NCBI RefSeq assembly: GCF_019649055.1
Contig: NW_026570274.1
Coordinates: 682,001 to 746,000 of the forward strand
From: Paramacrobiotus metropolitanus
Taxonomy: Eukaryota > Tardigrada > Eutardigrada > Parachela > Macrobiotidae
Direction of reading: 5' to 3'
Length of the DNA stretch: 64,000 nucleotides
Under the pieces are notes generated by a model. The model did no database searches. It worked only from the letters and a program-made list of their open reading frames with translations, and was not told where the DNA came from. Position numbers and translations under genes: made by a program. Below, one piece after another: positions 8,026-57,535 of the stretch; the stretch's first letter is position 1, and the number at the start of each line of letters is the position of its first letter.

Positions 8026-8188
8026 GTGAGTCGGCGAAGTCCGCCGTAAACCGTAAAACGGGCACCAGTTTTAATCAAGAGTACAGAGTTAGACAGAGCG
8101 TCTGTCCAAACGAATTTCTGTCTGCTCCCTTGATTAAATGCGTTTTACGGCGCCCGGTCGCCTGCCCAGGCGGACTTCGCCGACTCAC
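8026..8188 (+). mobile_element. MITE with 20-bp terminal inverted repeats, TA-flanked (copy 1)
   Basis: The termini GTGAGTCGGCGAAGTCCGCC and its exact reverse complement bound a 163-bp element without coding capacity, with TA on both sides (8024-8025 and 8189-8190). An inverted, diverged copy of the same length lies at 48675-48836. TA flanks and short inverted ends point to a Tc1/mariner-type non-autonomous element. Two hairpin repeats start five bases downstream. Confidence 0.85.
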
Positions 8189-8193
8189 TAATC

Positions 8194-18818: not shown

Positions 18819-19020
18819 ATGCGCTGGAATTATATGCTTATTTTATTTATCGCTATTCTGAGCATTCTTGCGGTTACCTTTACACTACGGCATCCAGGTA
18901 AAATAAGCGTTTTTTTGACACGGTTTTTGATAGAGTAAAGTAGTAAACATTGATAACAGTTAGACGTACTATTTAAACAATGAAAATTTATAAATTTGCA
19001 TTCCGAGGATATCACATATA

Positions 19021-19044
19021 TACATAAAATAGGTATATTTTATG
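19021..19044. repeat. AT-rich palindrome in the leader intron
   Basis: TACATAAAATA and TATTTTATGTA form 11-bp perfect arms with a 2-4 base centre, followed by a further TACATAAAATATTATGTGTG repeat. Possibly low complexity. Confidence 0.6.
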
Positions 19045-19601
19045 TACATATACATAAAATATTATGTGTGTATGTACATCTGTTGTAGAAAGCGTTTATA
19101 CTGCAGTTGATTTTATAAGCGTCTTTAATTAAGTACGCGTAAAATAGCTTCTTTTCAGCGGTGGATTTATCAACCGAATCCATGAGCATCCCATACAACA
19201 ACGTCCACATTCGCGTCTTCAAATCACAGACGAACCACAGCGTGTCGTATCTGTACACCCCCGCCTGCACCTTCTCGCCCAACTCCACCCGGATCATGCT
19301 GAACAACGCCACCAATCAGCAGGTTGTCCTCTTCTCCCTTGACCTATGGACCACCGATTACGAAGCGTACATCCAGCGCTTTGTTACGGATAAACTGCAG
19401 CAGTACACGCCCCCAGACGTCCGCATTATTCCCTTTCGCAGCATGCGTGTGGACACCACGGATAACAGCTACCGGCATAGGACGATGAACCAGTGGATTT
19501 CCATTGCGGATCGCCCGGCACGGATCTTCGGGCGGTTGGTCTGTACGTCAGAGCGGCAATGCCACGAGATTGCTGAACTAATGCAGTATGATAAAGAGTA
19601 C

Positions 19602-19778
19602 GAGGACATTTGGGTGCTGTGAACATACCCTGCACGATTAGGCTGCGATGAACAGCTGGTTAGCCGTAGCTCGCAACGCTACTGATATCACAGTCTGAAT
19701 GCAAACGGCTATAAATTTAGCCGGCTGTTCATAGCAGCCTAATCGTGCAGGGTATGTTCACAGCACCCAAATGTCCTC
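19602..19778. mobile_element. 177-bp MITE with about 55-bp terminal inverted repeats, GTAC target duplication
   Basis: The ends begin GAGGACATTTGGGTGCTGTG and are inverted at the other end; about 55 bp match with one mismatch. GTAC flanks both sides (19598-19601 and 19779-19782). The insertion brings an in-frame TGA at 19620-19622 into the host exon. Ignoring the element and one GTAC restores host frame. The target duplication is the same as that of the foldback at 45498-46153, whose ends also start GAGG. Confidence 0.9.
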
Positions 19779-20542
19779 GTACTTCGCATCGGGATTGAAT
19801 GTCTCCTTCTCGTTAAAACAACCGGAGCGCTATAAACGCCGAATTCCCCTGACGAAAGAGGATCTACAGTTTTCCCCGCTATTCAACGCTTTTGATCAAC
19901 GATTCTCCCAACAAAGCATGGCATGTTTACGGGAATGTGATTTACACAGGATTATTCGGGAGACGTTTGACCACGCCTTGGAAAGTAACCTTTCCGATGA
20001 GGAGTTCGTCAGTGAAGACCAGATGTACGGTGTCATTCATTCATTCAGATTTCCTTTTGGTAAATTCACCATAATGAAGCCACCGACTTATTGTTTCGAT
20101 TTCGACGCTTCTGTAACTTGGAAAACTTTTATGCCTGAGTTTAGAAAAGTTTTGATTCATGTGAGTGACTTGGAATTCGAAGTTCGACGTTTGGGACTGC
20201 AGAACAAGAATCTGGAAGACCAGCTGAAGCAAGCCTTGAGTGATCAACAGAAGCCATTGCATTCAACTCCTCCACTGAATGTAATTGAGAGTAATTCTCT
20301 CGCAGCGTCAACGTTGTCTCAGGAAAATGTCAATGAATTCAACAAAGCGATGGAAAACCTCTGCGAAAGAGTTTATGCAACTGAGTGGACTGTTATGAAG
20401 CCTAAAGCTAAAAAAGCGGGAAAACGCTGGAAGCCCGAGAAAAAAGAAATTCCCCGACTGAAGCCCTGCGCAAGCCAGCCAACGATCCCTTGCTCGACAA
20501 CTGTTCCAAATAGTTCATCAGCTGACATTCCATCAAAACCAC

Positions 20543-20753
20543 TGTTACGAGTATACATTAGCTTAACTATTAATAATATCTCCTTATATGTGTATCATAG
20601 AAGTATCTTTCTTGCGCCTGCCCTAATCTATTTACATGTGTTTTGGAACTCAGCTCGGCTTATAAAGCGCCGGCTGACATTTGTATCCTTCAGCTTATTC
20701 TATCATTAAAGCTCACAGTAACATCCGCGCCTTTACGAAATAAGCACGTAACA
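20543..20753 (+). repeat. 5' LTR of the gypsy element
   Basis: Starts TGTTACGAGTATAC and ends CACGTAACA. TATAAA at 20661-20666 may be the core promoter. The primer-binding region follows from 20754 (ACTTGGTGGCTCC); I did not identify the tRNA. Confidence 0.93.
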
Positions 20754-20968
20754 ACTTGGTGGCTCCAGGGCCGTTGACTGTTTTACTCAGTTAACACGAG
20801 TGCCCATGACAAATTTTGTTTTCTTTTTGAAAAAGTATCTTTATATACCGCGATACTTTTGTGACCTTTCCATCATTTATTTACGTATTTTCGGATTACT
20901 TGGACACCTTACAACCCTCTCCACCAGTGATTGTTATGTCGTAAACCGGTACGTACGCTACGCAGCTA

Positions 20969-22429
20969 ATGTCTCACGCTAATGCCGCAGAAGAAGAAGT
21001 CCAGTTCCGGGAAGAAGAATACTTCTCCAACGACGAATCATCCGCTAGCGAACGTGACGACTCACCAGATCGAACAGTTCTTCGAGCAGATTTCCCGCAA
21101 CAACCCCCAGGGATATCCACTCGTTCTCGACTCCATTTACCAGCTATACCAATTCACGATCAGTACGCCGCCCTTGAACGTGCAAACCGCCCAGCCAAAG
21201 CTATCCCGCAGCGCGAAGCGAACGAAGCAAACGAAGAGAACGAAAAAGAGGAAGTAGATAATCCACGTCACTTCTTCGACCCAATACCTGACCCACCGCC
21301 TCGTCCAGAAAGTCCACCTTATATTCAACCACAAGAAACATCGTTTTTCGAATTACTATCGAAGCGATACCGGGATTTTAACAACAAAATGGCGAAAGAA
21401 GAGGACACGCTCGTTAACCACGCAAACGCCATCCGTGCGCAAATGGCTGCAACCGACAACTTACAACGACAACTGAATGAAATTCGCGATTTAGCAGAGA
21501 ACGGTGCCGGTGCAACTGACATCATTAAAGGTATTTCTGAGACGCATAAGAAGAAAGTGCCAACTAAAGAATTACCGCAGTTTGCAAACAAAGAAGATGA
21601 AGATTTTGAAGACTGGTTGTTAAAGTACGAGATTTGCATTAAACAGCACGACTGGACTAATGAAGACGCAATCGGTAATCTGTACCGTGCATTCAATGGA
21701 ACTGCCCTGCGCATATACAACACGCTGCCTGCTGAAGGGACATGGACAGAAATGAAGAAACTGCTACGCGATGCCTTCGCCAAACAGCTGTTTGACTACG
21801 ACTTGGCTAAAGACACCAAGCGCTCGCTGACGTACGCTGGTAATCCAAACGACTACTACGCCAATGTCATGCGATACCTCAATTCTATTTCTGACTCGCC
21901 GACCGAACGCGAAGTCGTGAATAAGCTGTTCGATGGGCTGCCACCGCAGCTGAAGTCAGGATTCGTGAGCAATATGCCATCTACGCCGAATGAATTCCTC
22001 ATTAAGCTGAAAGAGGTAGTGAGAGAGAAAGCATACCAGAATGAGCAGTGGGAGAGAGAAGTTGCCGACTGTGTGAAGAATCCTGTCATTGCCGCCTTAT
22101 TCAATAACACCGCTGAGTCACGTCACAGCAATCCTAATATGGACGATCGTTTAACTGCCATTGAAAGAGCGATTGAGAGGATGACACTGAGCGAATCCAG
22201 ACCATATATGAACCGTCGTTTCGGCAGAGGAGGAAGAGGAAACTTTAGAGGACACAGAGGATACACACGAAAGTTCTGCAACTACTGCAAGCGTACCAAT
22301 CACACCATTGAAGAATGCCGGCAACGAAATAAAAATAATCAAGGCCAAAGAAATGTCCAGCCGTCGTATGCCAGTATGCTGCATCCGCCAACTGTTCATG
22401 CACTGCCGGCTCCGCAATATTTAAACTGA
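20969..22429 (+). CDS. Retrotransposon gag polyprotein, 486 aa
   Basis: Acidic N-terminus, then a retrotransposon gag domain in the middle (TKELPQF ... DWLLKYE ... LRDAFAKQL). A CCHC zinc knuckle lies near the end (CNYCKRTNHTIEEC) next to an RG-rich basic stretch. It forms the particle core and binds element RNA. The start is the first ATG after the leader. The TGA at 22427-22429 directly follows a slippery site that gives access to pol. Confidence 0.92.
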   Translation: MSHANAAEEEVQFREEEYFSNDESSASERDDSPDRTVLRADFPQQPPGISTRSRLHLPAIPIHDQYAALERANRPAKAIPQREANEANEENEKEEVDNPRHFFDPIPDPPPRPESPPYIQPQETSFFELLSKRYRDFNNKMAKEEDTLVNHANAIRAQMAATDNLQRQLNEIRDLAENGAGATDIIKGISETHKKKVPTKELPQFANKEDEDFEDWLLKYEICIKQHDWTNEDAIGNLYRAFNGTALRIYNTLPAEGTWTEMKKLLRDAFAKQLFDYDLAKDTKRSLTYAGNPNDYYANVMRYLNSISDSPTEREVVNKLFDGLPPQLKSGFVSNMPSTPNEFLIKLKEVVREKAYQNEQWEREVADCVKNPVIAALFNNTAESRHSNPNMDDRLTAIERAIERMTLSESRPYMNRRFGRGGRGNFRGHRGYTRKFCNYCKRTNHTIEECRQRNKNNQGQRNVQPSYASMLHPPTVHALPAPQYLN

Positions 22430-22462
22430 ATACCACAGCTTCTCTGGCTCACGAAGCTGTGG
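22420..22462 (+). promoter_or_regulatory. -1 ribosomal frameshift signal at the gag-pol junction
   Basis: The slippery heptamer TTTAAAC spans 22420-22426 and is in the correct register with gag codons TTA AAC, directly before the gag stop. After a 6-nt spacer comes a perfect 10-bp stem, CCACAGCTTC (22433-22442) with GAAGCTGTGG (22453-22462), and a 10-nt loop. Pol lies in the -1 frame and stays open across the site. All parts are visible; frameshifting itself is inferred. Confidence 0.88.
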
Positions 22463-24807
22463 ATCGTAAGTCACTAATACCTATCTGTCATTTCTATACA
22501 GGCGCATTATCATTTAACTTTTTCATTAACAATGAGCCACTCACCGCAATTATAGACACTGGGTCTGGTATTTCTTTAATTAGTGATCGTGTTGCATCAA
22601 AGTATTTATTTACTCGTATGAATTATAATGGACCTTCACTTGGGACTGTTTCTAATATAATAGTGCAACCAACAGAAGCATGCCGCATGGACATTCAATT
22701 ATTAGGATTTAATGCCGAATTAACCGTAGCAATCCTACATAATTTTCCTTTTGATTTATTATTGGGCAATGATTATTTAATTACTACACCGTTCCTATTA
22801 AGTTTTGCAGATAGCCAGCTGGTCAACCCGGAGAATCAAGAATCAATTCCTGTCGCCTGCATACGCATACCCACTTCATACAGTATATTGCCTAGTCCAA
22901 CCTTGAACTTTCGTGGCCCTGAATCGACATTAAGCGCGCAACCTTCCATCAACAATGCCGGTTCAGCCGTGAACGTTCATCGTACACTGGATACAAGCCG
23001 GAATAAGTCTGCAGCTCCCGTTCCCGGCCTTGCCAACATGGCAGCACGTGCACGTACAGATATACAAGTGGATCCACATACAGAATTTAAAGATGAAAAG
23101 TTTATTAGCCCAACAGACTTGCTACAAGATGGCTCTCCGGAATCACAAGACGTTTCCATAGAAGAATTTTCTAATCAATTTAATTTCGGCAAAGATATGT
23201 CCCAGTCCCAACGTCATCAGATGCTTCAATTACTCTATAAGTACCGTACACTATTCCCCTCGAAAGAAAAGAAAGTTGGAAGAACCAACAAAATCAAGCA
23301 CGTTATTGACACCGGATCAAACCCCCCTGTGCATCAAGCCTTACGACGCCATGCCCCTTGGCAACGCGAATTCATCAACAAGCAAGTGAAACAATGGATA
23401 GAAGAAAAGATAATAACTCCGTGCAACTCCGAATGGGCGTGTAACATTGTTCTAGTCCCGAAGAAAGATAAAGAGCTTCGTCTCTGTATCGACTTCCGTG
23501 CCATTAATTCAATCACGAAGAAAGATTTGTATCCCTTTCCAAGAATTGACGATTGTTTAGACGTACTACAAGGATCAAAGTGGTTTACCGGCCTGGATCT
23601 CCTTTCAGGATACCTGCAAGTTGAAATGCATGAAGACTCGAAAGACAAGACAGCCTTTTTAACACCAGAAGGACTTTACAGATTCGAAGTTATGCCGTTT
23701 GGACTCTGTAATGCCCCGGCTACATTCTCACGTCTAATGGACAGCATACTTAAAGATTTCAAGTTCAAGTTCGTCATTGTTTACCTTGACGATGTTCAAG
23801 TATACAGCCCTTCGTTCGAAGCTCATGTGGAACACCTGGAAAAAGTTCTAATGAAATTTCTCGACGCAAACCTGATGCTCAAGCCCTCAAAATGCCACTT
23901 TGGATGCAATAAACTCAACTTCCTTGGACATACTGTAACACCTGATGGAATTTCTCCTGATGCCAATGAAGTAGCAACTATACAGAAGTTTCCCGTGCCG
24001 ACAGACTTAAAGACACTGCGATCGTTTCTGGGCGCTGCCAATCATTATCGGAAATTTATTAAAGATTTTTCCCTTATTGCCAATCCTTTGAACCACCTTA
24101 CTCAGAAAGACCTACCATTCCGGTGGACCGATGAACAACAAGTTGCCTTTGAATCTCTTAAAAAGAAATTGGTCAGCAAGCCTCTCCTGGCACACTTCGA
24201 CCCGAATAAGAATCTCATTTTGGAAACAGACGCCTCAATGCTAGGACTTGGCGCAGTACTCAACCAAGTGGACAACAACGGAAATGTTCAGCCAATAGCC
24301 TATGCCTCAAGAAGCCTCACCGCATCAGAAAAGAACTATTCCACGACCGAACAAGAGCTTGCCGCCGTAGTTTTTGCCGTAGAAATTTTTCACCCTTACG
24401 TCGGAAACCCTGGAAAGACCTTCGACATAATAACGGATCACAACGCCTTAAATGGACTACTGAAAGCGAAAAACCCAACTGGACGCCTAGCCCGATGGAT
24501 CCTAAGATTACGCCCCTACAACATGCGAATTGGATACAGACCTGGAAAAGTTAATAATATGGCCGACTGTTTGTCAAGATTTCCTTATGACGCAATAGAC
24601 GTCCCACCTGAACATCAGCTATCTACACCTTTATTTTTCCTAGAATCTTTTAACATCGCCTTAATGCAACAGCAAGACTCGTATTGTTCAAAGATTATCG
24701 ACACTCTCCGTGGAGATACGACAACACCAAATTACCGCCAGAAAAGAGTGCACTTCGTAATCAAGAACGACATCCTTTACCGTATTGTTTTCGTGACAAC
24801 AGAATGA
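22426..24807 (+). CDS. Retrotransposon pol, part 1: protease, reverse transcriptase, RNase H
   Basis: Entered from gag by -1 frameshifting; no good ATG opens it. The aspartic protease motif DTGSG is near 22557. Reverse transcriptase includes the fingers motif LCIDFRAIN and the catalytic YLDD at about 23782. RNase H begins around LILETDAS at about 24215. This frame ends at the TGA at 24805-24807, apparently after a one-base loss near 24782, since the integrase continues in another frame. It copies element RNA into DNA in cytoplasmic particles. Confidence 0.92.
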   Translation: MNTTASLAHEAVDRKSLIPICHFYTGALSFNFFINNEPLTAIIDTGSGISLISDRVASKYLFTRMNYNGPSLGTVSNIIVQPTEACRMDIQLLGFNAELTVAILHNFPFDLLLGNDYLITTPFLLSFADSQLVNPENQESIPVACIRIPTSYSILPSPTLNFRGPESTLSAQPSINNAGSAVNVHRTLDTSRNKSAAPVPGLANMAARARTDIQVDPHTEFKDEKFISPTDLLQDGSPESQDVSIEEFSNQFNFGKDMSQSQRHQMLQLLYKYRTLFPSKEKKVGRTNKIKHVIDTGSNPPVHQALRRHAPWQREFINKQVKQWIEEKIITPCNSEWACNIVLVPKKDKELRLCIDFRAINSITKKDLYPFPRIDDCLDVLQGSKWFTGLDLLSGYLQVEMHEDSKDKTAFLTPEGLYRFEVMPFGLCNAPATFSRLMDSILKDFKFKFVIVYLDDVQVYSPSFEAHVEHLEKVLMKFLDANLMLKPSKCHFGCNKLNFLGHTVTPDGISPDANEVATIQKFPVPTDLKTLRSFLGAANHYRKFIKDFSLIANPLNHLTQKDLPFRWTDEQQVAFESLKKKLVSKPLLAHFDPNKNLILETDASMLGLGAVLNQVDNNGNVQPIAYASRSLTASEKNYSTTEQELAAVVFAVEIFHPYVGNPGKTFDIITDHNALNGLLKAKNPTGRLARWILRLRPYNMRIGYRPGKVNNMADCLSRFPYDAIDVPPEHQLSTPLFFLESFNIALMQQQDSYCSKIIDTLRGDTTTPNYRQKRVHFVIKNDILYRIVFVTTE

Positions 24808-26160
24808 ATTTCCTCCTAGTTGTACCTGCAGCAGTACAACAGACAGTGCTCAAGAACGCTCACGACACCTCCGGACACTTTGGAGTTTCCCGTACTTACG
24901 AAAGAATTCATCAAAAGTATTATTGGACAAACTGCATTAAAGATGTTTTTCAATATGTAACTTCGTGCAAGTCCTGCCAGATTTCGAAGTCGCCGAATAG
25001 TAAACCTTCTGGATACTTACAACCTCTACCAGTTTCAGGACCATTCAATACCGTTGGAATCGACTATCTTGGACCGTTTACAACAAGTTCTAAAGGAAAC
25101 GCCTACCTCATCGTGGCAATAGACCACCTAACGAAATGGGTTGAAGCGAAAGCTGTCCGCTCCGCAACCGCCTCGAACGCCGCACATTTTTTAAATGATT
25201 TTATAGTTTACCGCCATGGAATACCTAAAAGACTCCTTTCCGACCGTGGGAAACACTTCGTCAACTCCCTAATGGATAATTTATTAAATTACCTGGGCAT
25301 AGAACACGCAACTACGACAGCATATCATCCCCAGACGAATGGATTAACCGAAAGAATGAACCGTACCATCAGCGTTGCAATTTCTCATTACGTCAGCTCT
25401 AATCACCGCGATTGGGATGCTTTTGTACCTTCATTAGTTTGGTGCATCAATACATCAAAGAACGAAACTACAAAATTTTCACCTTTTGAACTCCTATACG
25501 GACGTCAACCTGTTTTTCCCTTCGACCTTCAAATGCAATACGATGGATTACACGAAATTCAAAATATCCCGCAATACGTGGATACAGTACATAAATGGTT
25601 GAAATCAGCACAAGAATTAGCCAAACTTGTTCAGACAACAACATGTTCAGACAGAATTTTCACCTGGAGATTTAGTTTTACTATGGACACCGCCTAAACT
25701 TCTTAACGACATGGATCAGCCAATCATCAGTAAGAATAAATTAACTACGAAACTTTTAAAGAATTGGCATGGACCGTGGGAAATCATCGAACAAACTTCT
25801 CCTGTCAACTATAAAATAAGAAACCGCAATGGACGAAAAAAGATTGATACTGTACATGTTGACCGCCTGCGAAAGTTCAACGAAAGAATCAACCCGGATA
25901 CGGAAGAGTTTGATGAAATAATTTATTTGGCTAATAAGCCTAAAGAATCAGCAGAAGACAATTTTCCTTTAAATTTTTCTTCTAATGACGATAGTCAGAA
26001 TTTTATTTTCAGTAACGATGACCCAAATTTACCGGAAGATAATAATCCGCTTGGACATAACGCCCTTGACCATGAAAGGCAACCGGACGATACGGATAAC
26101 CCGCAACCACGATATAACATGCGGAAGCGAAAGCCAAAGGAGGGAGGGAAGCCGAAATAA
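24740..26160 (+). CDS. Retrotransposon pol, part 2: integrase (two frames)
   Basis: The first frame, to 25697, has the N-terminal zinc motif (HDTSGHFG ... CKSCQ) and the catalytic core with Asp in GIDYLG, Asp in SDRGKHF and Glu in LTERMNRT. The frame is lost near 25640 and continues in the next frame to 26160 with the GPY-type C-terminal module (GDLVLLW, WHGPWEII, HVDRLRKF) and an acidic tail. The frame change leaves this copy without an intact integrase. Confidence 0.88.
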
Positions 26161-26248
26161 TTTTATTTTCAATTTTCTTTGGATTTTATTTTCATTTTAT
26201 TTTCGTTAATTTCTTAAGCTGCGGACAGCTTAATTTTAAGAAGGGAAG

Positions 26249-26459
26249 TGTTACGAGTATACATTAGCTTAACTATTAATAATATCTCCTTATATGTGTA
26301 TCATAGAAGTATCTTTCTTGCGCCTGCCCTAATCTATTTATATGTGTTTTGGAACTCAGCTCGGCTTATAAAGCGCCGGCTGACATTTGTATCCTTCAGC
26401 TTATTCTATCATTAAAGCTCACAGTAACATCCGCGCCTTTACGAAATAAGCACGTAACA
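26249..26459 (+). repeat. 3' LTR of the gypsy element
   Basis: 211 bp, matching the 5' LTR apart from at least one visible substitution (TTTATATG versus TTTACATG). Preceded by the purine tract at 26238-26248. Confidence 0.93.
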
Positions 26460-27699
26460 CCACCCGTTATTCCATCTTCTTATGCGTCTACTGTCAAACG
26501 ACAACCAAAGATGATTCGTGGTACGATGGCCCCTGAAGCCGAAAATGTGGAACCACAAAGCGAACTGGTACGTTCATTACAGTGTAACCGAAAGCCGCAT
26601 GCTGATTTTTGCGTGCGCGGTATTCCGCGAGTTCCAAGTTCACGATTCAACAACGCAAAAGAATACAACAACTTTCTCGCCGACCAACTAAAGGCAAACG
26701 GGATTTCTACACGATTTGTGAGTGTCTTCATTCCGCCTCTTGGCGACAAGCGAACATCCACATTTGCCCGCATTGGAACTTTCAAAGACATGTCCGAGAA
26801 AATCCTGGACCCGAAAATCTGGCCGTCAAATGTTTTTGTTCGTGAATGGGTATACTGATTGGTCTTGCCTAAATGTTTTCCTGCCTACGACTCCTTCTTT
26901 CTACCTTTGGTAATATCCTGAATGTATCCCAGCATGTACAGTAATTAAATACTGCAGCTCTCTAACGCTCATGATTAGTGAATATATTCCGGCCTAGGTT
27001 TCCAGCTTTCTCTTTCTCGGTGTTATACGTAAGTGTTTAATCACTTTCCTGAAGTGATCTCCTTTTTTCCAAACTTGCTTAATGTGTACCAAAAGCTGTG
27101 CGTTTTTTGACTTTGACTAATTACTGTCTGAAGCCTCGAGGGGGCAACCGCTCCGTGCAAGGACAATAAACCTCCATTATTATTATTATCAGTCGGGCGG
27201 TGCGGTTATTCCTTCCTAAAATAGTCTCCACCACGAATTTTACCGATTTGATGTGGCAGAATACATTTTGGCTAGAACACTCGGAGCGTCCTGATCAAAA
27301 GGTCAAGTTCCTCAACGACAAAGTGGCCAACGGGAATAAGTGGATGAAAGCGCTGTTCAAGATCGGGCCAGTTTTTCGCGCCCTCGATTCACCGCGTACC
27401 GCCCTGGACCCGCAGTCACAAGAGGATCGGACCAGTATCGTGACGAAGGTGAATAGCTCCGAGGGAATGGTGCAATGGGATGGAGACATGTTTGTCATTC
27501 GGCCAACGACACTGTACTGCCTCAATCTGGACACAGTACGGTCGACGGAGAAGTTTGGGAATTTCACGGTATGGGCCAGTGTTAAGGCGGGTGATTTGTC
27601 GGCAACCGTGAATATTCCACTGACTAATCTGACAGCGACGACGGTGGAGAAACAGTGGACGTTGTGCCACTGCAAGTGCACTTGTTAAGTACGAGTGTC

Positions 27700-35536: not shown

Positions 35537-36834
35537 ATGCCGCCGAAAAAGCCTGCAGCGCGCGCTCGTAATCCGAACCCACGAGGCGCCCGCTCTGGCA
35601 AAGAACCCGCCACCACGCGGCAAACTAAGTCGCGGCCTAGTCGGAAACGCCGCCGATCGGAGTCGCCCGCCCCCATAATTCGGTCGGAATTAGTCGTCGT
35701 AGAACAGCCGCAGTTCGACTTGAAGATGATGATGGAGCGCCAGAATCAGCAAGGGCAGCAAATCCAGCGCCTAATTGACATTGTGTCACCGCTGGCATCC
35801 AGGAAACCAGCGGGTTCCCGGCCGAAATCTCCGGCTACAGTCAACCCCGGCCTCCAGATTGAGTCCTCACTCGACGGAAAACGAACGGTGCGCTCCAGAG
35901 ATCGCAGCCGCTCACGTGACCAGCACCACAAACGCAGAGGTAAGAGTCGCAGTCACAGTGAGTCGTCCTCTTCTCGTAGCCGCTCCCCGGCTCGCCGCCC
36001 GATCACCGAACGCCTGGGTCCTCACCCAAATCGGCCTCATAGTCTGGAAGACTACTTCGGAGCATCCACGTCGGGAGGGCAGTCAAAAGGCGGAGCAAAA
36101 CACCTGGTCTCAGTTCCAAGTAAAACCCGACGACGGCTCCTCGACCCATCACGTTATGTCGATTTCGACGACCTGCTATCGAAGAATTGCGTCGAGAAGC
36201 CTAAGCATGGAGGTTCAAAGCTGCTAATGTCAAAAGGCAGCGTTCTTCTCAAGCCAAACGAGACACGCGCGGTCGTCGACTCCTTTGAATCCTGGTGTGA
36301 CGCGTTCGCGGTGTTTATGGCATACCGGATCAGCGTTATTCCGCAAGTCGCCGGTGCCATGTGCCGATACTTGTCGCTGATAGCAGCGTACGTCTGGCGT
36401 GGGGTTCCTACAGCCCATTGGCTGGAGTACGACCGCCAGTTCAGGTCCGTGATGACAGGGCATCCTTATGAGTACGATATGTGGGCTCGGCAGCACGACG
36501 ACACCTATACTGATTATATCCAGAACGCCGCCCGGAAGAGGGCACTAGCGACAGCGGAGCCGCGCTTGGAGCGAAGAAATCTGCCGCCCCAACGGACAAG
36601 GGTCGAAACTGCGGACAAGTGGGACACTTTATCGCCCAGTGTCCGTACCCGCGCAAAGGCCAAGTGGGGTACCAGCAGCCCTTTCGCCCTCCCCCAGCAG
36701 TGGGGGGCGAAGTCTGCCGCAACTACAACCGATTTAATTGCGCGGAACCCTGTAGTGCTGGAAGCCTCCACGTCTGCGAGCGGTGCCACGACAAGGACCA
36801 CAAGTCCGCACAGTGTAAATACGGCTCTCGGTGA
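35537..36834 (+). pseudogene. DIRS-type gag, frame changed
   Basis: The start codon ATG at 35537 is followed by basic and Arg-Ser-rich stretches, then the DIRS gag core (SFESWCDAFAVFMAYR ... VWRGVPTAHWLEYDRQFR). Around 36530-36540 the coding frame shifts: zinc-knuckle-like sequence (GRNCGQVGHFIAQCPY, then HVCERCHDKDHKSAQC) continues in another frame to a TGA at 36832-36834. The open frame that runs on is pol. Confidence 0.75.
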
Positions 36835-38475
36835 TCAGGTGACAGTGCCCGAAAAAGCTCAGACGCCCTTGCGTGCTGAGACTTTTGAGAGACTGCTCGC
36901 TGATCACCCCGACGCTCACCTTCGCCGTTTCATTTCCGACACACTACGCCTGGGTGCCGACATCCGCTATCGAGGCCCACACCTTTCTCGCAAGGCGCCT
37001 GACTCGCAGTCTGCGCGCATTCACCAGTACGCGCTGCTCCAAAGTGTTCAGAAGGAAGTTGACTTGGGTCACTCAGTGGGCCCTTTCCCGAAGCCACCAT
37101 TCCCTCAATTTGTGGTCAACGCTCTCGGGTGCCGGCCGAAGAAAGACGGCGGTCACCGCACCATCATGGACCTTTCCCAACCGTCGGGCAGCAGCGTCAA
37201 CGATCACATTGACGGCCGTGAAATGCCGCTGCAGTACTGCTCCGTGGACGACGCCGTTCGACTAGCGTCTTCCGCGGGCAGATACGCCATCATGGGAAAA
37301 ATGGACATAAAGTCCGCGTTTCGGTTGATACCTGTGCGGCGGGCCGACTGGAACCTCCTGGGGTACTGTCTAAATGGTAAGTACTATTTCGACATAGTAT
37401 TACCATTCGGTTGCTGCTCCTCGCCCTATATCTTTCAGTTCTTCTCTGCCGCTGTTCATTGGTGCGTAGTAAAGAACGCCGCCGGACGTCCGGTCCGTCC
37501 ATGCTACACTACGTGGACGACTACCTGTTCGTCGGCTCCCCGGGCACCGACGAATGTGCGGCTTTGATGACAGCGATGTGGGAAGTGTGCAAGGAGCTTG
37601 GTGTCCCCCTGGCGCTCGACAAAACCGAGGGACCCGCAACTCGCCTGATTTTTCTCGGCATTGAAATCGACTCCGACGCGCAAACACTCAGCCTACCGGC
37701 CGGGAAGCTCCAAGAAATCAAAGCAACCCTCGAGCGATGGCACGAAAGGTCAAGCTGCACGCTGACAGAACTGCAGAGCCTGATCGGAACACTGACGTTC
37801 GCCTCGAAATGCATCCCATCGAGTCGACTGTTCACCAGAAGGATGATACAGCTACTGTCAGACCATCCCTTACGGGCTTTCATAACCCTCGACATACAGT
37901 TTCACCTCGATCTTGACTGGTGGCGAAGGTTTCTTCCCCAGTGGAACGGAACTGCGTCATTTCTCCAGCCAGACTGGACCACGTCAGATGTCCTGCACCT
38001 GTACACAGACGCGTCCGCCACGCTAGGACTCGGAGCATTCTGCGAAAATGAGTGGTTCCAATCTAGATGGCCGGAGTGGCTGTTGCAGGCAGCACCGTCG
38101 ATTGAGTACCTAGAAATGGTGCCCATTCTACTTGCCGTCCTTGTTTTGGGGCGAAGATGGCGGCGGAGAAAGATAATCTTCCACACGGACAACGCCGGCG
38201 CTGTGGAGGCATGGGCTCACTTGCGCTCCAGCAGCCCGGGCGTTCTCGACCTAATGCGACGCATGACCTGGGCAGCGGCTATGAATAATTTAACGTTGAC
38301 ACTGAAGCACGTTCGAGGCGTTGACAATGGCATCGCTGACGCGCTCTCTCGCTTTCAGATGGAGCGGTTCCGGGCGCTCGCTACTGCAGCAGCTCCAAAG
38401 CCGACCACGTTTCCGGATATATTTCCGGACCTGCACAGCACGTTCCGCCCAACTCCACGCTGGATAAGCTCCTAA
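36835..38475 (+). pseudogene. DIRS-type reverse transcriptase and RNase H
   Basis: The reverse transcriptase fingers (VNALGCRPKKDGGHRTIMDL) and palm (MGKMDIKSAFRLIPVR, LPFGCCSSPYIF) run to about 37500. The catalytic YVDD (HYVDDYLFVG) lies in the next frame, so one base is gained or lost just before it. RNase H follows (LHLYTDASATLGLGAF, FHTDNAGAVEAW, ADALSRF). Stop at 38473-38475. Confidence 0.85.
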
Positions 38476-38479
38476 TGCC

Positions 38480-39567
38480 CACATCTCTGGATCCTCCAGG
38501 AAGACGTACGGGGCATCGCTGAATCGTTCGAACGGTTCTGCAATGAAAGCGGTTACACGATGTTGCCAGCAAAATCATCTACTGTTGCATCCTTTGTCGC
38601 TCAGCTGTTCGATGAAAAGGCTGCCTTCCGAACCATGAAAGTTTACCTTGCGGCCATCCATAACAGCCACAGAGAGGCCGGGCTGCCTAACCCCACCGTC
38701 GACGACTTGGTCGTGCGCGCGGTGAGCGGTTTCAAACGGCTGAACAGCCCGAAGCCTGACCGGCGTCTACCCATTACAATGGACCTCATGCGCACACTTA
38801 AGACTCGGCTGAAAGCACACAACGACGAAGACGAATCTGCCATGCTCTGGAGCGCCTTCTGCACGGCGTTCTTCGGATTCCTGCGCATAAGCGAGATCAT
38901 CTCGAAGTCGAAGCACACTTACGACCGCGCATCCACCCTGCTCCTACGTGACGTGAGCATATCCGATGACGCAGTGGTTATAACGCTGAAACGGACAAAA
39001 ACAGATCAGAGCGCTGAAGGCTCCAGGATAACGCTGACGGCCACGAATCGTTCGGTCTGCCCAGTGCGCGCCATTAAGACGTACTACCGCTACCGTGCCG
39101 AGCAGGGACACCCTACGTATCCGTTCTTTCGATACCGAGATGGTGATTACCTCACCCGCGGAGCCGTAAACCGGTTTTTAAAATCACTGCTGAAGATCAC
39201 CCGGATTGCGCGCGGCTTAGCACGCACAGCTTCCGCATCGGAGCCGCTACGGAAGCCGCGGAACAACAACTCCCAAAAGAGGAAATCCAGCGCGCCGGGA
39301 GGTGGAAGAGCAACTGTGTGGAGCGGTACATCCGGCCCCGCACACTCACCGGACCTGACCTCTACAGACGAGCAACTTGTTTGGGGGCGAAGAAACCGGG
39401 CACCGGCGGAGGGTGCCGGCAGTGAGCGACCTGTACCCACAGGTAAGATTTCAGCTGCAATTGCGCACCTCCGGCCATGCCGGCACACTTCAAACTCCAA
39501 AAACCGCACGCGGAAGTCGCCTCGCACATCACTGAACTCCGGAACCACATCGCGAATTCAAGGTTAA
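38480..39567 (+). pseudogene. DIRS-type tyrosine recombinase
   Basis: The catalytic Arg box is FFGFLRISE at about 38871-38897. A Lys-containing beta segment follows (LKRTKTDQ). The second box, THSFRIGAATEAAE, and the end GRWKSNCVERYIRPR with the tyrosine nucleophile lie in a different frame, after a one-base change near 39215. It would join circular cDNA to the genome; disabled here. Confidence 0.85.
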
Positions 39568-46373: not shown

Positions 46374-46512
46374 TTGCTGCAGTTTATCCGTAACAAAACG
46401 CAGGATGTACGCCTCGTAATCGGTGGTCCACATTGGTCCAGGGAGAAGATGACAACGTGGTGATTGGTGGCATTGTTTAATTAGCAAGATCCGGGTGGTG
46501 TTGAGACATGAC
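46374..46512 (-). pseudogene. Fragment of the tail-collar gene family
   Basis: The minus strand matches 19285-19400 closely at nucleotide level (ACCCGGATC, AACAATGCCACCAATCA, TGGACCACCGATTACGA, CGGATAAACTGCAGCA). A two-base gain at about 46430 breaks the frame. Only about 140 bp is present. It is a third, relict family member. Confidence 0.8.
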
Positions 46513-47735
46513 ATACTATTTCATCATTCAAAAACCGTCTTTTGTCGTCATGTCTGTCACTGGTCAATTGAAAACGGTGTTGAATGCTTATTCACCTGGA
46601 TGCTGTAGTGTAGAGGTAACCGAGACAACGCCCCGAATAGCGCCAATTTAGACAATCATACAGTTTATACGGCGCATGATAATTCTTGGTTGGTTTGCGT
46701 GCCATTGAAAATTAATGTGCTAAGCCATGAGTAGAGATGCAGAAGGTTATTTTCACTTGAAATATCTGTGGAAATAATGCTGCTTATGTACCGTAGTTCG
46801 TCCAATGATTGGTGTAACACTGTTGAGTGGTTGTCGATGGTCACGCCAACAACAACATGATCGCATATTATTGGCACACACGTTGGCTTAGGTTCAAAAT
46901 TACGAGCTTAGGTTCAAATTCGTATTATATAATTACTGGCACGTTCATATGAACCTGTACAGGGCAACGGGTCTGCGGCCCGACGTATGTGATCACCGTA
47001 AAACGCGAGCTGTTGTACGTTGTTCTGCTGGAATCTTGTTTTACGTTTTGTAAAGTTTGTATTTCAAGTGCTAACAGTGTTTCTCATTGTTATAAATGCT
47101 TACTTATGGCGTACACTCAGCAGTGTAAGGCAAATATTGTAAAAGATGTGCTGTGATGAATCCATCGTTTTTGAATATTTATGGTGGATAGCGGGATTCT
47201 ATACCAAAATTAATGCAGAATCATGTACTCTGTGCTTAATCCAACCAACGCAAACACTTATGTACGTATTCGGGTAGAAAGCGACAAAGCGTGTTCTGTA
47301 CACCGTAATACAGATTGATAAGTCTATTACCAAAGCTTTCATGAACTTCCCTGGTTCATGGAATAATTAATTACAATCCATAGTACGGTTATGTATTATA
47401 TAAATTACACAATTGTAACGTTCTGGTGAAGTAAAAATATTAGAGAACCTATGTGAAAAATTCTCGTGTGATTGATTTGATCTCCAACGTATTATCAGTC
47501 TCTAACATTACACAAGCTCATATCACTGTAATATAAAAAAAAAACAGAATTAAGTACCTTAACCAATTGTCACTAGGGTAAGTATCCGTATCTTTAAACT
47601 AGCAAGCTCGTATTATAAACCCTGTCGTCAAAAATGGCGGCAAATTGTTATGTGCCTAACCGCTTCCTGTTGTCGTGGTGTTCATTCGTTTTCCTTCACT
47701 GCCGTCAACATCTCTGTCCGTAATCATGCCAGACT
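46513..47735. other. Intergenic, no gene recognised
   Basis: AT-rich sequence without coding pattern; 3' flank of the minus-strand tail-collar gene. Confidence 0.4.
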
Positions 47736-49584
47736 TCAGTTTGTTATCCCCATACACGTAATTGTACCCCGAGTCCGGTCATGATCGAATTTCGTGGCTG
47801 TGCGACGGTACCTCGTTAATGGTAAGGACATGCTCTGCCTCACCGCCCCTTGCCCCACATAGCTGTAATTACCCTTCTGACTGATTCCCATTGGAAAGCG
47901 CTCTCGAAGATCCGGTGTATTAACACGCGGAAACAACGCAGTCGCCAAAAGTGGATACGTTCCGTTATCGAAAGGCGCCCTATCGCAAAGCAACCAGCAC
48001 GGCGGTAGGGAAACGTCGCAATGGTACGCTATAATGCTGCCGATAGGTGTGGTATTTTCCAAAGCTGTGGACAAATTATATATCTGCCGCGCTACGTTAT
48101 CAAAGGTCGATTTCAAACGCTCAATATCCATTAGAAGAGATTCATGATTTCCGGAAAATGGCACATTGACGGCCGATGAGAGGTCACCAGCTTTCGAACT
48201 ACTCCACACCTTTATTTGTCCAAGGTCACCGTCGGAATTTAGGGCAGTCAGATTAATACAATGCAGCGTCGTCAGACGGATAACGAACTTATCACCGTTC
48301 CAAAGGATTAAACCTTTCGGATCTTTTAGCTGCGAACGAATACCGCTCCAGTCCATCGACGAAGTGCTCTCCAGGGCAATGGAATTATTGTCCGATTGAA
48401 AAAACGCTTTGATCCAGTTATTACCGTTACCTAAAGATTCGTTAAGATTTTTTATTATTTCGTCAGGACGGATGCTGCCGACCGGCCAGAAGACGCCTTT
48501 CTAGCTCTGTTCCGTGAATTCGGTAGTTGACCTGACTTTGGGCTTTAAAAGCCGAAGAACGCTGTTCGTAGCTTTGTGCAATTCGTTCTCGCTGACAAAG
48601 TCTTCATCGGGTATGGCTTCCTCCAAAAGAGTATCGAGGGCTTCCCGCGCCAGCCGCCGCAGATCGGTATACTAGTGAGTCTGCGATGTCCGCCTGGGGA
48701 AGCAACCGGACGCCGTAAAACGCATTTAATCAAGGGAGCAGACAGAAATTCGTTAGACACACGCTCTATCTAACTCGGTACTTTTGATTAAAAGCGGTGC
48801 CCGTTTTACGGTTTACGGCGGATACCGCATACTCACTACTGCAGACATACAACCGCCGTCCGGTAGAATTTCTGCTGGATTGCCCGGAATGTATCCGATG
48901 ACTGAAGAGCTGCAGCCTTGATCGAAATATTTCGCTTAGTATCCACAGGTTTCTTCAGCGCGAAGGTCAGTTCTAAGCCGAACAGAAGCTGATCTTGAGA
49001 ATTCTCCACAGCATTTTGAACGCTGGTGCATTCAGGATCGGTAGAGCAGAGAATGCGCACCAGTACGAAAGCCGGTTGATGCGTAATAGGCGTCCATTGA
49101 TTCATGACTTTTATCGGTAGGGTATTATCTATAACGTCCACGCGCACACTGTGAAATGGGATGATGCGAACGCTTGACGGACTCGGTTGATGGCCCTGCT
49201 GGGAAAGTTGTAATTGGATGTGTTCTCCATAGGAAATATTCCATAATTTAACTGAAAAGGCTACATAGCTTTGCAGCTCGTTATGAACGATGTACGTTGA
49301 ATTGGGTACAAACAAACCAGCAGGTGCGTAGTAGTAAGACCAATTAGCTACCGAGTCACCGATGTATCTATATATACGTGCCTGGAACCCTTTGTACGGG
49401 ACATTGATGTAGACGGAAGTGAGGTCGACCGGGGCAGCTGCAAAAACAACAGCAAGTAAATTGAAAGTATGTAACAGTAAGTAAATTTGAGCTACAATTG
49501 GGAACCAAGCGGCTTTTGCATACCACAAGACTGCAATGCAACAAGTTGACACCAGAGTAGTCCTATAAACTCAGCTTCAAACAT
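47736..49584 (-). pseudogene. Secreted protein with C-terminal phage tail-collar domain, MITE-interrupted
   Basis: Exon 1, 49584-49524, encodes a short hydrophobic leader (EFIGLLWCQLVALQSC); the join G/CT to exon 2 at 49437 is in frame. Exon 2 encodes an unrecognised N-terminal region (VDLTSVYINVPYKGF, VRIIPFHSVRV, MNQWTPI), is interrupted by a MITE at 48675-48836, and resumes with RRLAREALDTLLEEAIPDED. A TAG at about 48506-48508 replaces a Trp codon of the relative (MWQN there). A coiled stretch (LLMDIERLKSTFDNVARQIY) follows, then the tail-collar domain at about 48047-47877 (PIGSIIAYHCD, CWLLCD, TPDLRERFPMG). Stop at 47736-47738. The collar domain is typical of phage tail fibres and receptor-binding tips, where it trimerises. 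MITE plus stop suggest a pseudogene. Confidence 0.75.
48675..48836 (-). mobile_element. MITE with TA flanks (copy 2), in a coding exon
   Basis: Inverted, diverged copy of 8026-8188: GTGAGTCTGCGATGTCCGCC at one end, GGCGGATACCGCATACTCAC at the other, 162 bp. TA lies on both sides; AGTA also fits as a 4-bp duplication on the minus strand and, unlike TA, would restore the host frame exactly (CTGCAG then TATACC). Confidence 0.88.
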
Positions 49585-53251: not shown

Positions 53252-56200
53252 TGAACGCGCACGGTGGTGGATCTGGGGATACGGATGGGAAGCCCGGCTC
53301 TGATTTGAAAGAGCGGGCTAGCCGCACGCCCCTCGAGGATCAACCGGTCTGGATGAAAGACAACCGGGAGCGGTCGTTGAAAATGTCGGGTCGGGAGAAG
53401 CTGGAGAAGGAGGTGGATATTCTGGAGGAGTTTTGGCGCTGGAAGCCGGAAGGAACCAAAGATGAATTTCTGGACTGGAAGGTGAGGTTTTCTTTGTTTT
53501 GTTTCCAGAAAAGCTGCGTATGCTTTCAAACGTTTTTATTAATTCTGTCAGTAAGAGGATGCTTGATATTCACATACAGTGGAATGAATCTGTCTGCTGA
53601 AGAGTATAGACCTATAAATGTTGATTTCATTGTTACATTTTCGCTTTGAAATATAATGCCGTCGTTATTGCTGTTTTTCTCTGCTGTTTTCTAAACAACT
53701 TTAAAATCGCAGTTCGACTCAGACCTGTACGTTTTTTTCCCGGTCTTTGTATTAACTTCAAGAGTAATTAATTCTGGTCCCTGTATCATGGTTAAAATTA
53801 AATTATTCTGGTTTTTATGGTATTTTTAATAATAATTAATTCTGGTCCTTATATTAATTTTTTTAGATTTATTTGTAGTCTTTATGTTATCCTGAGGTTT
53901 AATTAATTCAAGTCTTTGTAAAATCATTTTTTAAACTTCTGATTTCTGGCAAGTTTTCGTTGGCTTTTGCAGACGGCCGTGGATAATTTTGTCGTGACCC
54001 GGAGGATTGACTTTTCGGATCGGCAGGAGTACGCTGCGTACTGGGACAGTCTGGTTGTGGAACTCTCTCGTCAAGAGAAAGGCACTGTGGAATCCTTGCC
54101 GCCGATGCGCAACCTGGAAATCAAATGGATGAGCGCCTACGATATTGAAGTAAAAGTCCCGCAGGGTATCTTCACGGAATTCCTGGAGATCGGGCGTCCC
54201 ATGGAAGTTTCCTGGATGATCCTGAAGGACGGCGAAGAGTACTCCATGTGGCAGCGCGATGCGACGATTTCCGCCCTCCGCCAGCTAGACACCGAGCATG
54301 TCGTCGTGGTGCACTGCCTGTCGGCCGTCAACCCGGGTCATCATCGTGTCAGCCGCGAACTACGCTTCCGCATGGTGTATAACGATGTGAATTATTGGCG
54401 GATGAACCAGGCGCTGTATAAACTGGAACACGATCCCAGCTGCGTCTTCCAACAGGTAAGGTTCGAATTCAAGCGGCTTTGAGCCGCTTTTGAAATGAAA
54501 TCAATTTGAAAAAAAACAAGTTATTAAAGATTTATTTTTCGAATATTTACTGTCTGTAAACTCAGATATTTAATGAAATATTATTACGGTTACCGGGTTA
54601 CGGTAGTCTCGTTATCTTCGACAGTCATTGAATCGTTACTAGTACTGAAGTTAATACGTTTTTATTGAAAAAATATTTTATGACATTTAAACTAGGCAAA
54701 AATTATAAATAAATCTAAAAATTATTTGAACGGAAATAAAATGTAACATTATTTGATGAAAATAAAAGCAGTTAATTTCACCTTGAATTACTGTATTCGC
54801 TCGCACATCTTGGACCACAGAGTGTGTGTACGGGAAAAACGCGCATTCAATATACACACTCTAACCGGGCCAAACGCGCGATTCGCGATTTGATAAATTT
54901 CTGATGTCTTACAACATCTGGACTGGAGAACTTCTTGAATAATGAAAAAAATTAGAGCTCTAACAATTTTTATCATGTTTAGGCTCGAAAGCAGCCATTA
55001 ACATTCAGCTTTGGCGTAAGCACGAGTTACAAACGGATTTTGTTGTGGTTTTTGGGGTGCCCCTGGAGGGGGAGGGGTACGTTCCGCGTCAACATTCTTG
55101 ATGGCGATGAACCACCGAACAATGCGAGCTTTCAGCTACAGAACCTTTTTTTTCCAGAGTGAATTGCCATTTAAATGAAAAGACTTGATTTAATAAACAA
55201 AAATTCACAAGAAGAACTGTTCATCTTGAAACCAAATGAGGAATATTTCGTAGTCGTGCATTTTGCCCGGTTAGAGTGTGTATATTAAATGCGTGTTTTT
55301 CCCGTACACGGACTCTGTGGTTCAAGATGTGCGAGCGGATACAGTAACTGCTTTTATATTATTGGCGCTGCGGATTTATGAGAAGGAAATGCACAGACTG
55401 TCTGCTGCACGTGCAATGTGAGCGAAAACAGTTTGGACGTTTTTCCATATTTTCTCGCCATCAGTTATTTTTTTTTAATACTTTCAATGGTTTGTGTTTC
55501 TTATTTTGATAACTATTCATGAGTAGTTTGTTCATATATTTGTGATATTATTATAGTAACAACCGCGCACAATTACTTTTTTGGTATTTTTTCCAGTAAA
55601 TTCTTTCTTTTAAGAGCGAGTACTTATTTTTTATTTTTCTCGGGTGAATGCAGAGCGCCGGTCTGATGAGTTTGGAAAAAGTTGCTTTTCCTTACGTGTT
55701 CGTCGACGAAGCCGCTCAAGGAATGGAGCCGGAATGCTTGATTGCAATCACCCGGGCATGCGAAAAGGTTTTTATTGTCGAAAGAATTTTGCAGCGGACT
55801 GCTTTTCCATGTCGTGATTTTGTTGGTTGCAGTTGGTGTTGATCGGCGTTCCGGCTCAGCTGGGCGCCGTTGTTCGCTTTCCCAATCTGCAGAAATCCCA
55901 TTTAACCACCTCGCTGTTCCAGCGCCTGTGGAAGGTGTGTCCGTGGATGATTCTGGTGCAGCAGTATCGCATGCACCCGGCTATCTCCAAAATGGTCTCG
56001 CAGATCACCTACGAAGACCAACTGGTCAATGACGAATGCGTTCGTAAGTCAATTTCGAATCGAAGAAAATTAATTTTTAAACAATTTTTACCAGCTGCAC
56101 AGTGTTATTGGTTTTTAAACTGCCTGTTGGTATTTATTGAGTAAAACTTTTATTGTAAAATCGATAAATAATTTATTATAAAACTGGTTTATAATTTTCT

Positions 56201-57535
56201 TATAAAATATGTTTTAATTGTAGTAGTAATGTTAAAAATAACAGGATTTCTTTGTGGTTTACAGTGACACGAACGTCCGCGTCGGTGCTGTTGAACGACA
56301 TGTTCGGTATGTTCGTGCCGCCACCCTATATTGTCCGCCACCATGAACTGCTCTTCGGATCGGACGGGTTGATCTATACACACGAGGGTATCATTCCGAT
56401 GCTGTTTGTCAGTTTGGCGCGGAATGACGAGCTGTCCGGCAGTGGGACGTCGTTCGTCAACATGGCGGAAGCGCACTTCATCGCCCGCCTGGTGGCCAAT
56501 ATTCTCCACGAGGGCACCGTCTTCTTCATCCCGGGTCTGGAGAAACCCCGCCCGGAAGAGATCGGCATCATTACTTTTTATAACGGACAGCGTCCGCAGC
56601 TGGAAATCGAACTCAAATATTATCCGCAGGTCAACGAGCGGGTCAAGGTCAGTGTATACCGTCGACATTAGATTTATCCCGCTTTCTATCGAAATGTTGC
56701 GCTGCTGGGAGGAATACTTCGGTTTTTGGAATTACCGTCGAGTCGAATGCTTAACGGTTGTTAAGTGTATTGTGTCAAATTTGTAAATAATGAGTACATG
56801 CTTTCGTGGTCAGAGTTGAAGAGCTGTAGTATTTCTGTTAGTCATTCGGCTTAATTATGAAACTTGCGTTATGGCTGAATTCACCATCTTGATTCTTTGT
56901 TGCCAATTTTTCAATCGATTTTAAATTTATCAACTGGGTAATTTAAGAATTTTTTTTCTAACACTCTGCTTGATTTTAAATTTTGATAAATGTGTATTTC
57001 GGAAATTCTCCGATTATCAAATCAACATATTAGTCATCGATGCTGATGGTACTGTACTAACTAGTGAAAATTCTGCGGATTGTATTCGTTTTGACTGCGT
57101 TGCTATGAAGTTGATAAATTATATTTTCAAAATTGTGAAATAATTTTATTATGTATCATTTTGCGCTATGTGTAGGATATTGAGATCAGCAGTGTGGACG
57201 GGTTTCAAGGCCGCGAGAAGGACATTATCATTTTATCCTGCGTCCGCTCGGCCGACTCGTACCGCGGCCGGCGCACCCTGGGCTTCACGGATGACCCGCA
57301 GCGTCTGAACGTGGCCATGTCGCGCGCGCGCAAGGCGCTGATCGTCGTGGGCAGTCTGCATGTCTTCCAGTACTCCGACATGTGGCGCCAGTATTTCCGC
57401 TACATTCCCGCGGTCCAGGCCGACACCATGTGCCATTTGCTGCCGCTGCCCTGCAGCACCAAACCGCCCTGCAAGATCTGCCCGGATGATCACGGACTGC
57501 GCATCCAGCAGGCCATGGTCAATATGGGACAGTAG
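53252..57535 (+). CDS. UPF1-like SF1 helicase paralogue lacking Walker A
   Basis: Exons: 53252-53481, 53973-54455, 55654-55767, 55833-56043, 56265-56647, 57176-57535; all joins keep frame. The first two correspond to the UPF1 stalk and beta-barrel region (EVDILEEFWRW; YNDVNYWRMNQALYKL). Then come motif II (VFVDEAAQGMEPECLI), motif III (LVLIGVPAQLGAVV, where UPF1 has GDxxQL), QYRMHP, GTSF, IGIITFYNGQ, motif V (VDGFQGREKDIIILSC) and motif VI (RLNVAMSRARKALIVVG). The GPPGTGKT exon expected between 54455 and 55654 is absent; a 554-bp inverted-repeat element sits there. UPF1 is the ATP-dependent core of nonsense-mediated decay; without motif I, and with Asp to Val in motif III, this paralogue should not hydrolyse ATP. 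Clean exons suggest recent loss or a retained non-catalytic role. The 5' end is unresolved; no Cys/His-rich UPF2-binding domain was seen. Confidence 0.78.
54791..55344. mobile_element. 554-bp element with about 90-bp terminal inverted repeats
   Basis: The ends share CGCTCGCACATCTTG, ACCACAGAGT, GTACGGGAAAAAC and ATATACACACTCTAACCGGG in inverted orientation with a few mismatches. TA flanks both sides (54789-54790 and 55345-55346). No ORF of note; non-autonomous DNA transposon. It occupies the intron where the Walker A exon of the helicase would be expected. Confidence 0.85.

Follow-up and report, generated by a model that had tools for sequence, protein, structure and literature searches.

Phage tail-collar tips in a multiplied gene family of the tardigrade Paramacrobiotus metropolitanus

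Few grippers of bacterial surfaces have been studied as thoroughly as the tips of phage tail fibres, and the head of these tips is the region where phages change specificity. The best comparisons for the genes described here are the tips of T4 gp12 and gp37 (Phage Tail Collar, PF07484, with the Gp10_C head, PF21939), together with collar proteins of the microcystin-dependent (Mdp) type, which we take to be a suitable comparison for the tips as well. In gp12, His445 and His447 are metal ligands on the threefold axis, according to PMC3004832. Reuse of a phage fibre domain in animal proteins is described for MYRF in PMC3742443, and this is the sole comparable precedent that we met. Relevant mentions of collars in a eukaryotic setting came from a virophage table (PMC3671162) and a table of Plasmodiophora effectors (PMC9530463). 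In the open-licence PMC literature, partly among the matches listed, no report of collar genes in animals was found, and a word search of the main text of the 2017 tardigrade genome paper (PMC5531438) returned neither “phage” nor “collar”.

Here, we describe a locus in a 64-kb stretch of the P. metropolitanus genome (hereafter the window), where an ordinary pseudogene leads to an unusual family. The tips of this family are homologous to those of T4 gp12 and gp37 across ~150 residues, and share with them an aligned pair of histidines (HxH) and a helix before the tip. The tardigrade genes differ from phage fibres, however, in having a leader exon, an intron and an unrelated N-terminal module (N-module). 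MYRF is alike in the reuse of a phage fibre domain in an animal, but it carries another phage domain (the tailspike ICA domain) and is a membrane-bound transcription factor. Some members of the tardigrade family are also related in part to Link-domain proteins, since three paralogues share an Xlink end, whereas the member in the window has a phage collar in that place.

The copy in the window

Judged from its sequence, the family member at 49584-47602, delimited by sequence comparison on the minus strand like all its parts below, is a pseudogene, broken by an inserted repeat, an in-frame TAG and one-base length differences. It opens with a signal-peptide-like leader exon of 61 bases (49524..49584, ATG at 49584), matched by a leader exon in the nearest paralogue (C260:8932-10359, 88-89% identical), and with a predicted phase-1 leader intron of 86 bases, GT...AG (49438..49523). 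The first part of the N-module (48837..49437) has no counterpart in Pfam and matches the family profile at E 1.3e-69, the window sequence itself being one row of that profile. Beyond the inserted repeat (48675..48836), the module continues at 48504..48671 as far as the in-frame TAG at 48501-48503, and its end, with the shaft region, lies at 48144..48500. A predicted helix (48057..48143), possibly a coiled coil, then leads into the Collar domain at 47877..48047, which is recognized by PF07484 and by a tip profile and is covered by a structure model. The original prediction had let the collar homology end at 47736 and had given the tip 57 residues, which is too short, as the tip consists of Collar plus a Gp10_C-like head and its pieces extend in other frames to 47602. 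These are a continuation in a shifted frame with a PSHSH motif (47782..47868, tip profile E 3.7e-8) and the remains of the C-terminal motif (NNLPPFLTT, 47602..47655, tip profile E 9.2e-6). The Gp10_C-type head is frameshifted, and the three one-base length differences from the C260 paralogue all fall after the collar.

A leader exon and a spliced intron had been proposed for this gene. The leader exon and its 86-base intron stand, but the apparent intron within the coding part is an inserted repeat. A spliceosomal intron at 48675-48836 was rejected, as this stretch is a dispersed repeat, missing from the C260 paralogue, which has an open frame of 564 residues across the site of the insertion. 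The repeat is 162 bases long with imperfect inverted ends (17/24 bases) and is flanked by AGTA on both sides, where the C260 paralogue has a single AGTA; with this stretch, the window copy is 167 bases longer than its paralogue. It has at least 40 matches in the genome at 85-100% identity, counting the window copy itself (57 candidates, of which 40 were scored), and a second window copy lies at 8027..8190 (plus strand, 88% identity). The repeat is MITE-like in all three of the usual respects, namely inverted ends, target duplication and dispersed similar copies. Because the C260 paralogue is without the stretch and the stretch is dispersed in the genome, we read the coding break as an insertion, which leaves the leader intron as the only plausible intron of the window gene.

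Two more relatives had been proposed in the window, and for both the claim holds in part. N-module pieces are indeed present at 18819-27688, but no tip was found with them and they are split by a transposable element. This second family member is broken, with N-module pieces in two frames at 19143..20706 (plus strand, N-module profile E 5.8e-46 and 6.9e-23) and a later part at 27170..27685 (plus strand, E 6.2e-15), after which a search of the window with the tip profile found no tip. Its last open frame enters an LTR at 20543. The element itself (20543..26459, plus strand) is labelled Ty3/gypsy-like from our reading of its reverse-transcriptase, RNase H and integrase matches. Its LTRs (20543-20753 and 26249-26459) are 211 bases each and identical and its gag-pol frames are long and open, which suggests a recent insertion. 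The other proposed relative, at 46374-46512, corresponds to an N-module-like sequence, but only to a short and weak fragment without a tip (46374..46520, minus strand, profile E 0.18), of which one stretch aligns closely with the 19.1-kb copy. Elsewhere in the window, 35462-39567 holds a reverse-transcriptase frame (PF00078, E 8.7e-5) followed by a long frame without a Pfam match, presumably resembling a tyrosine-recombinase element of the DIRS type, and an AAA_12 helicase-type gene lies in pieces at 56195-57535. Rfam gave no matches on the 64-kb window.

Homology of the tip

The C-terminus of the window copy follows the Tail Collar pattern, as the original prediction had it. Its collar matches PF07484 at E 4.2e-5 (23.9 bits, slightly below the Pfam cut-off of 24), and it matches the tip profile, built from 26 tip regions elsewhere in the genome with the closest paralogue of the window copy included, at E 3.1e-19. 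Among the 26 aligned genomic tips, Collar was found in all with E values no worse than 0.1 (the best being 1.2e-11) and the Gp10_C head (PF21939) in 23 at the same level, and three PHROGs tail families match every one of them. At E 0.1 the tips match four Pfam families, none of which is the ICA domain (Peptidase_S74). Profile comparison with solved structures in the PDB matched the tips to a short tail fibre (E 5e-11), T4 gp37 (9e-7) and T4 gp12 (5e-5); unrelated viral glycoproteins in the same list, with E 0.28 or worse (below E 1), were taken as noise.

Relatives of the tip are widespread among phages and bacteria. Searches with tblastn from intact tips gave matches in 341 and 366 phage records, covering most of the tip, and the best match listed has E 2e-21 and 35% identity. 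The damaged window C-terminus reached E 6e-4 or worse among the phage matches listed, and the intact paralogues do much better. Confirmed tip relatives include at least 376 viral-contig stretches and 395 bacterial-genome stretches. The closest relative among the rows searched is a Saprospiraceae protein (43% identity), and a Microbacterium phage minor tail protein shares 35% identity with the tips. Minor-tail and Mdp-type collar proteins of bacteria and phages are the closest relatives among those searched, but searches with two peptide patterns and tblastn found no N-module there.

Motifs both unite and separate the two sets of tips. PxHxH is present in 23/24 animal tips and in 71/72 prokaryotic and viral rows. 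The HxH of the animal tips aligns with positions 116 and 118 in chain 1ocy, which correspond to gp12 His445 and His447 when counted along the 1ocy alignment with the entry numbering from 330. From this alignment of residues with gp12, the two histidines are putative metal ligands. In contrast, CWxxC (17/24 animal tips) and a C-terminal RAC (18/24) are found in none of the 72 prokaryotic and viral rows, and both would fit oxidative folding in the secretory pathway. The tips show no enrichment of N-glycosylation sequons (1.13 vs 0.95 per 100 residues).

An AlphaFold2 model of 47865-48146 (coil plus collar), for which the alignment included viral and bacterial tips, has a mean pLDDT of 83 and a pTM of 0.50. 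Model residues 2-30 form a helix directly before the collar, where a coiled stretch had been foreseen. A Foldseek search of the PDB with the collar model gave five matches, all to T4 tail-fibre proteins and all weak (E 0.07-6.2), and structure comparison gave Z 4.2-4.7, under the tool's level for a clear match. In a viral structure library, tail-fibre and collar proteins came top (best E 2.7e-3), and three of the matches bear the name MdpB. Taken at the level of sequence, the anatomy and homology of the tip family are firm.

A multiplied family with alternative ends

We searched the genome (169.8 Mb, 533 contigs) for both parts of the gene. A DM-domain gene pair in it, at C5:2,135,071 and C5:2,163,474, matches the placement of the DMRT pair of P. 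metropolitanus on Parri_scaffold0000005 (1.96-2.37 Mb, PMC11191345), provided that contig and scaffold numbers correspond; VPS29 did not discriminate between organisms, and a search for a SAHS-type lipocalin met an ordinary fatty-acid-binding-like protein. At least 28 Collar matches above the Pfam cut-off lie on 18 contigs of up to 3.16 Mb, and at least 70 N-module matches lie on 32 contigs; both counts are lower bounds, since only the best candidates were scored. In 21 of the 28 cases the 6 kb upstream of the collar hold an N-module match on the same strand, and for the other 7 collars the match lists hold none nearby. Intact-looking relatives, which the window lacks, do occur in this genome, as N-module and tip are found together in 11 open frames (L001, L003, L004 twice, L005, L006, L007, L008, L009, L019 and L021). 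A phage-type C-terminal motif (HNNxPPY) stands at the end, or at most three residues from it, in 24 open frames, among which L002 nearly repeats L001. The tips at L001:2-967 (C260) and L002:1287-1937 (C230) are near-identical and close to contig ends, and perhaps represent haplotypes or an assembly overlap. Several copies have coiled-coil-like shafts, going by weak Pfam matches. Leader-exon candidates, for which a highly hydrophobic stretch and a junction in phase 1 were required under criteria tightened after a looser run (9/16), were found for 8/16 paralogues as compared with 0/400 random anchors; the other eight paralogues have none under the strict criteria. The strongest genomic Collar match (L013:889-1704, minus strand, C15:264608, E 1.6e-9) covers the first 37 positions and is preceded by a membrane-helix-like region without an N-module. 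It is possibly a separate acquisition.

The family was proposed to belong to the host genome, and the spread over 18 contigs, the leader exon and intron and the adjoining N-modules all agree with this. Contamination of the assembly or a prophage remnant would explain a phage-like tip, but we give this next to no credence, as the gene models bear introns, copies contain a retrotransposon and a dispersed repeat, the collars lie on 18 contigs of up to 3.16 Mb, and the window neighbours are of animal type (a peritrophin, a piece of an ANF receptor). In the collar flanks, scanned for open frames at least 150 residues long, no phage tail gene cluster was seen; the collars sit in a eukaryote genome, and 21 of the 28 adjoin an N-module. 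Because of this setting beside an N-module in a eukaryote genome, the tip genes are not phage fibre genes, and the family tip, by its alignments, is a homologue of the fibre tip rather than a phage fibre itself.

The N-terminal region was described as unrecognized and common to all copies, which is in line with our searches. In the window copy, a Pfam search with E values up to 10 matched nothing in it, and across the N-modules of 26 family members there is no consistent match but fifteen scattered single ones (best E 0.0098). A profile of the module likewise gave only scattered single matches in Pfam and the PDB, and a structure model built on an alignment of three other window pieces was useless (pLDDT 40). 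No N-module was confirmed in prokaryotes or viruses (84,980 species genomes, viral contigs, phages and plasmids) in searches with two peptide patterns from four Link-type members, which gave 65 and 71 candidate stretches and no confirmed one, and in two tblastn searches.

Some N-modules carry another end. In three paralogues an Xlink (Link) domain, of a kind that binds glycans, closes the open frame of the N-module, with E between 2e-8 and 7e-7 and scores over the Pfam cut-off. These N-module and Link fusions are L025, L026 and L028 on C106 and C357, with several copies clustered on C106. Carboxypeptidase-regulatory-like stretches follow two N-module paralogues (E 5e-7 and 1.5e-6, below the cut-off), a GTPase-like exon follows one (MMR_HSR1, 22.6 bits, cut-off 21.9), and in one more a weak P-loop match closes the frame of the N-module. 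At L032 and L033 (C74 and C86), the N-module gene adjoins or ends in GTPase-like P-loop domains (AIG1-, septin- or MMR_HSR1-like). Where the end exon lies in a frame other than that of the N-module, the fusion is a predicted one. As Link ends occur in three paralogues, the collar is not obligatory for the N-module, and the module can be regarded as a scaffold with different ends. In a midpoint-rooted tree of 38 N-module rows, these ends need four changes among rows with known ends. The labels in this tree were partly set by eye rather than by Pfam (2/5 Link rows and 1/3 carboxypeptidase-like rows), and C22, labelled “other”, ends in a cut-short collar-like stretch.

Divergence, origin and possible use of the tip

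Eight pairs of paralogues, hand-chosen from 10 genes and non-independent, were compared region by region. N-module and collar evolve slowly as proteins, with dN of 0.15-0.54 and a dS that is either saturated or at least 1.09. Identity is 27-49% in the head, between HxH and HNN, and 46-74% in the collar; head identity is below that of the collar in 8/8 pairs, and the head is the least conserved of five regions in 7/8, with a shaft more diverged than the head in the C36 pair. Since dS is often saturated, we make no claim of positive selection on the head, and relaxed constraint may explain its divergence.

This pattern bears on whether the tip does more than hold a protein together. A tip that served only as a folding or trimerization cap, on structural proteins of the cuticle, egg shell or a glue and with no microbial binding, would suit the finding that collar, HxH and C-terminal motif are its most conserved parts, as well as the coiled-coil-like shafts suggested in some copies by weak Pfam matches. 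MYRF offers a precedent in the tailspike ICA domain (PMC3742443). Nevertheless, nearly all aligned tips have kept a head between HxH and HNN, fast though it diverges, and other paralogues carry Link domains; both observations are suggestive rather than decisive, and we consider a mere cap unlikely.

Trees of the tips show viral and bacterial rows intermixed, with the animal tips in two or three groups. The larger tree comprised 24/26 tips (two partial ones were left out), 32/80 viral loci, 34/80 bacterial loci (35 had been selected, of which one contained a stop and was removed) and 6 phage records; the smaller, of 39 rows, comprised 23 animal rows and 16 others picked by hand. The animal grouping needs two changes in the larger tree and three in the 39-row tree, and in the latter the animal tips form one clade in 0/200 bootstrap trees. 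The phylogeny of the collar domain, in other words, recovers no clean single animal clade. When one animal clade was imposed, the AU test gave p 0.216 for the 39-row tree and p 0.75 for a reduced tree, in which the constrained tree was even better and from which 10 further rows had been dropped, nine of them long-branched or near-identical prokaryotic or viral rows. As one clade is not rejected, a single capture of the collar is possible, and several captures are compatible with the trees as well. Tips may also have been exchanged between paralogues. The C319 and C102 genes are 76% identical in their N exons and 45% in their tip exons, and constraining their tips as sisters gave AU p 0.043, in a test set after the first tree had been seen.

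A different history would make the collar an old animal or eukaryote inheritance, or let it arrive by way of a giant virus or virophage of eukaryotes. Eukaryotic Collar proteins are found in Pfam, and in the midpoint-rooted tree of N-modules collars are present in each of the two main groups. A protein of Orpheovirus named as a collar appeared in the viral structure library, the virophage genes OLV18 and OLV19 have collars according to the table in PMC3671162, and a Collar is listed for a Plasmodiophora candidate effector in the table of PMC9530463. Against an old inheritance, the closest rows are bacterial, with up to 43% identity, although this is weak because the comparison was made among prokaryotic and viral rows. 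We see such a history as a real possibility, somewhat short of an even chance, and it is compatible with a role of the tips as adhesins.

On balance, we favor, with some confidence, the reading that a captured phage tip was multiplied into a set of secreted proteins with a predicted function as adhesins. An animal gene with an N-module of ~300 residues would have gained the tip of a phage fibre, or of a phage-like bacterial one, at its C-terminus, in the form of Collar plus a Gp10_C-like head of ~150 residues, and the fused gene would then have multiplied within the tardigrade genome. Intact copies would be laid out as a leader exon, a phase-1 intron, the N-module and a shaft, coiled-coil-like in several copies, followed by Collar, the PxHxH motif, a variable head and the HNNxPPY C-terminus. 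The proteins would be secreted and would form trimers through shaft and tip in the manner of phage fibres, displaying the head as an adhesin for a surface glycan, plausibly one of microbes in the gut or on the cuticle, although the choice of ligand is a guess. The N-module would serve as a scaffold for different ends, the Link domain among them. An acquired tip fused to a secreted module and then multiplied is what the original prediction had suggested, and its core is supported on a larger scale than proposed (28 collar and 70 N-module matches, as lower bounds), but the window copy is itself broken and the N-module also occurs without the collar.

A multiplied family with a variable head would suit a recognition repertoire of any kind, and a diversified secreted repertoire could act between individuals, in self- or gamete recognition, instead of towards microbes. 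Nothing in our data speaks specifically for such a role, and we hold it to be improbable. Returning to the captured adhesin, we tentatively suggest, as a broader view to which we would give rather less than even weight, that tardigrades have a secreted, fibre-like recognition repertoire built from a captured receptor-binding phage tip, in which one animal scaffold carries phage collar heads, diversified beyond the histidines, as well as Link and other ends, for use in defence, feeding or symbiosis.

With at least 70 genomic matches and no Pfam name, the N-module constitutes a separate family that has no name, and the intact tips of ~150 residues are a testable set for glycan binding. If the capture is true, it would be a new route for animals to obtain microbe-binding proteins, and if recognition is indeed the role of these tips, an animal would be reusing a virus's way of gripping bacteria.
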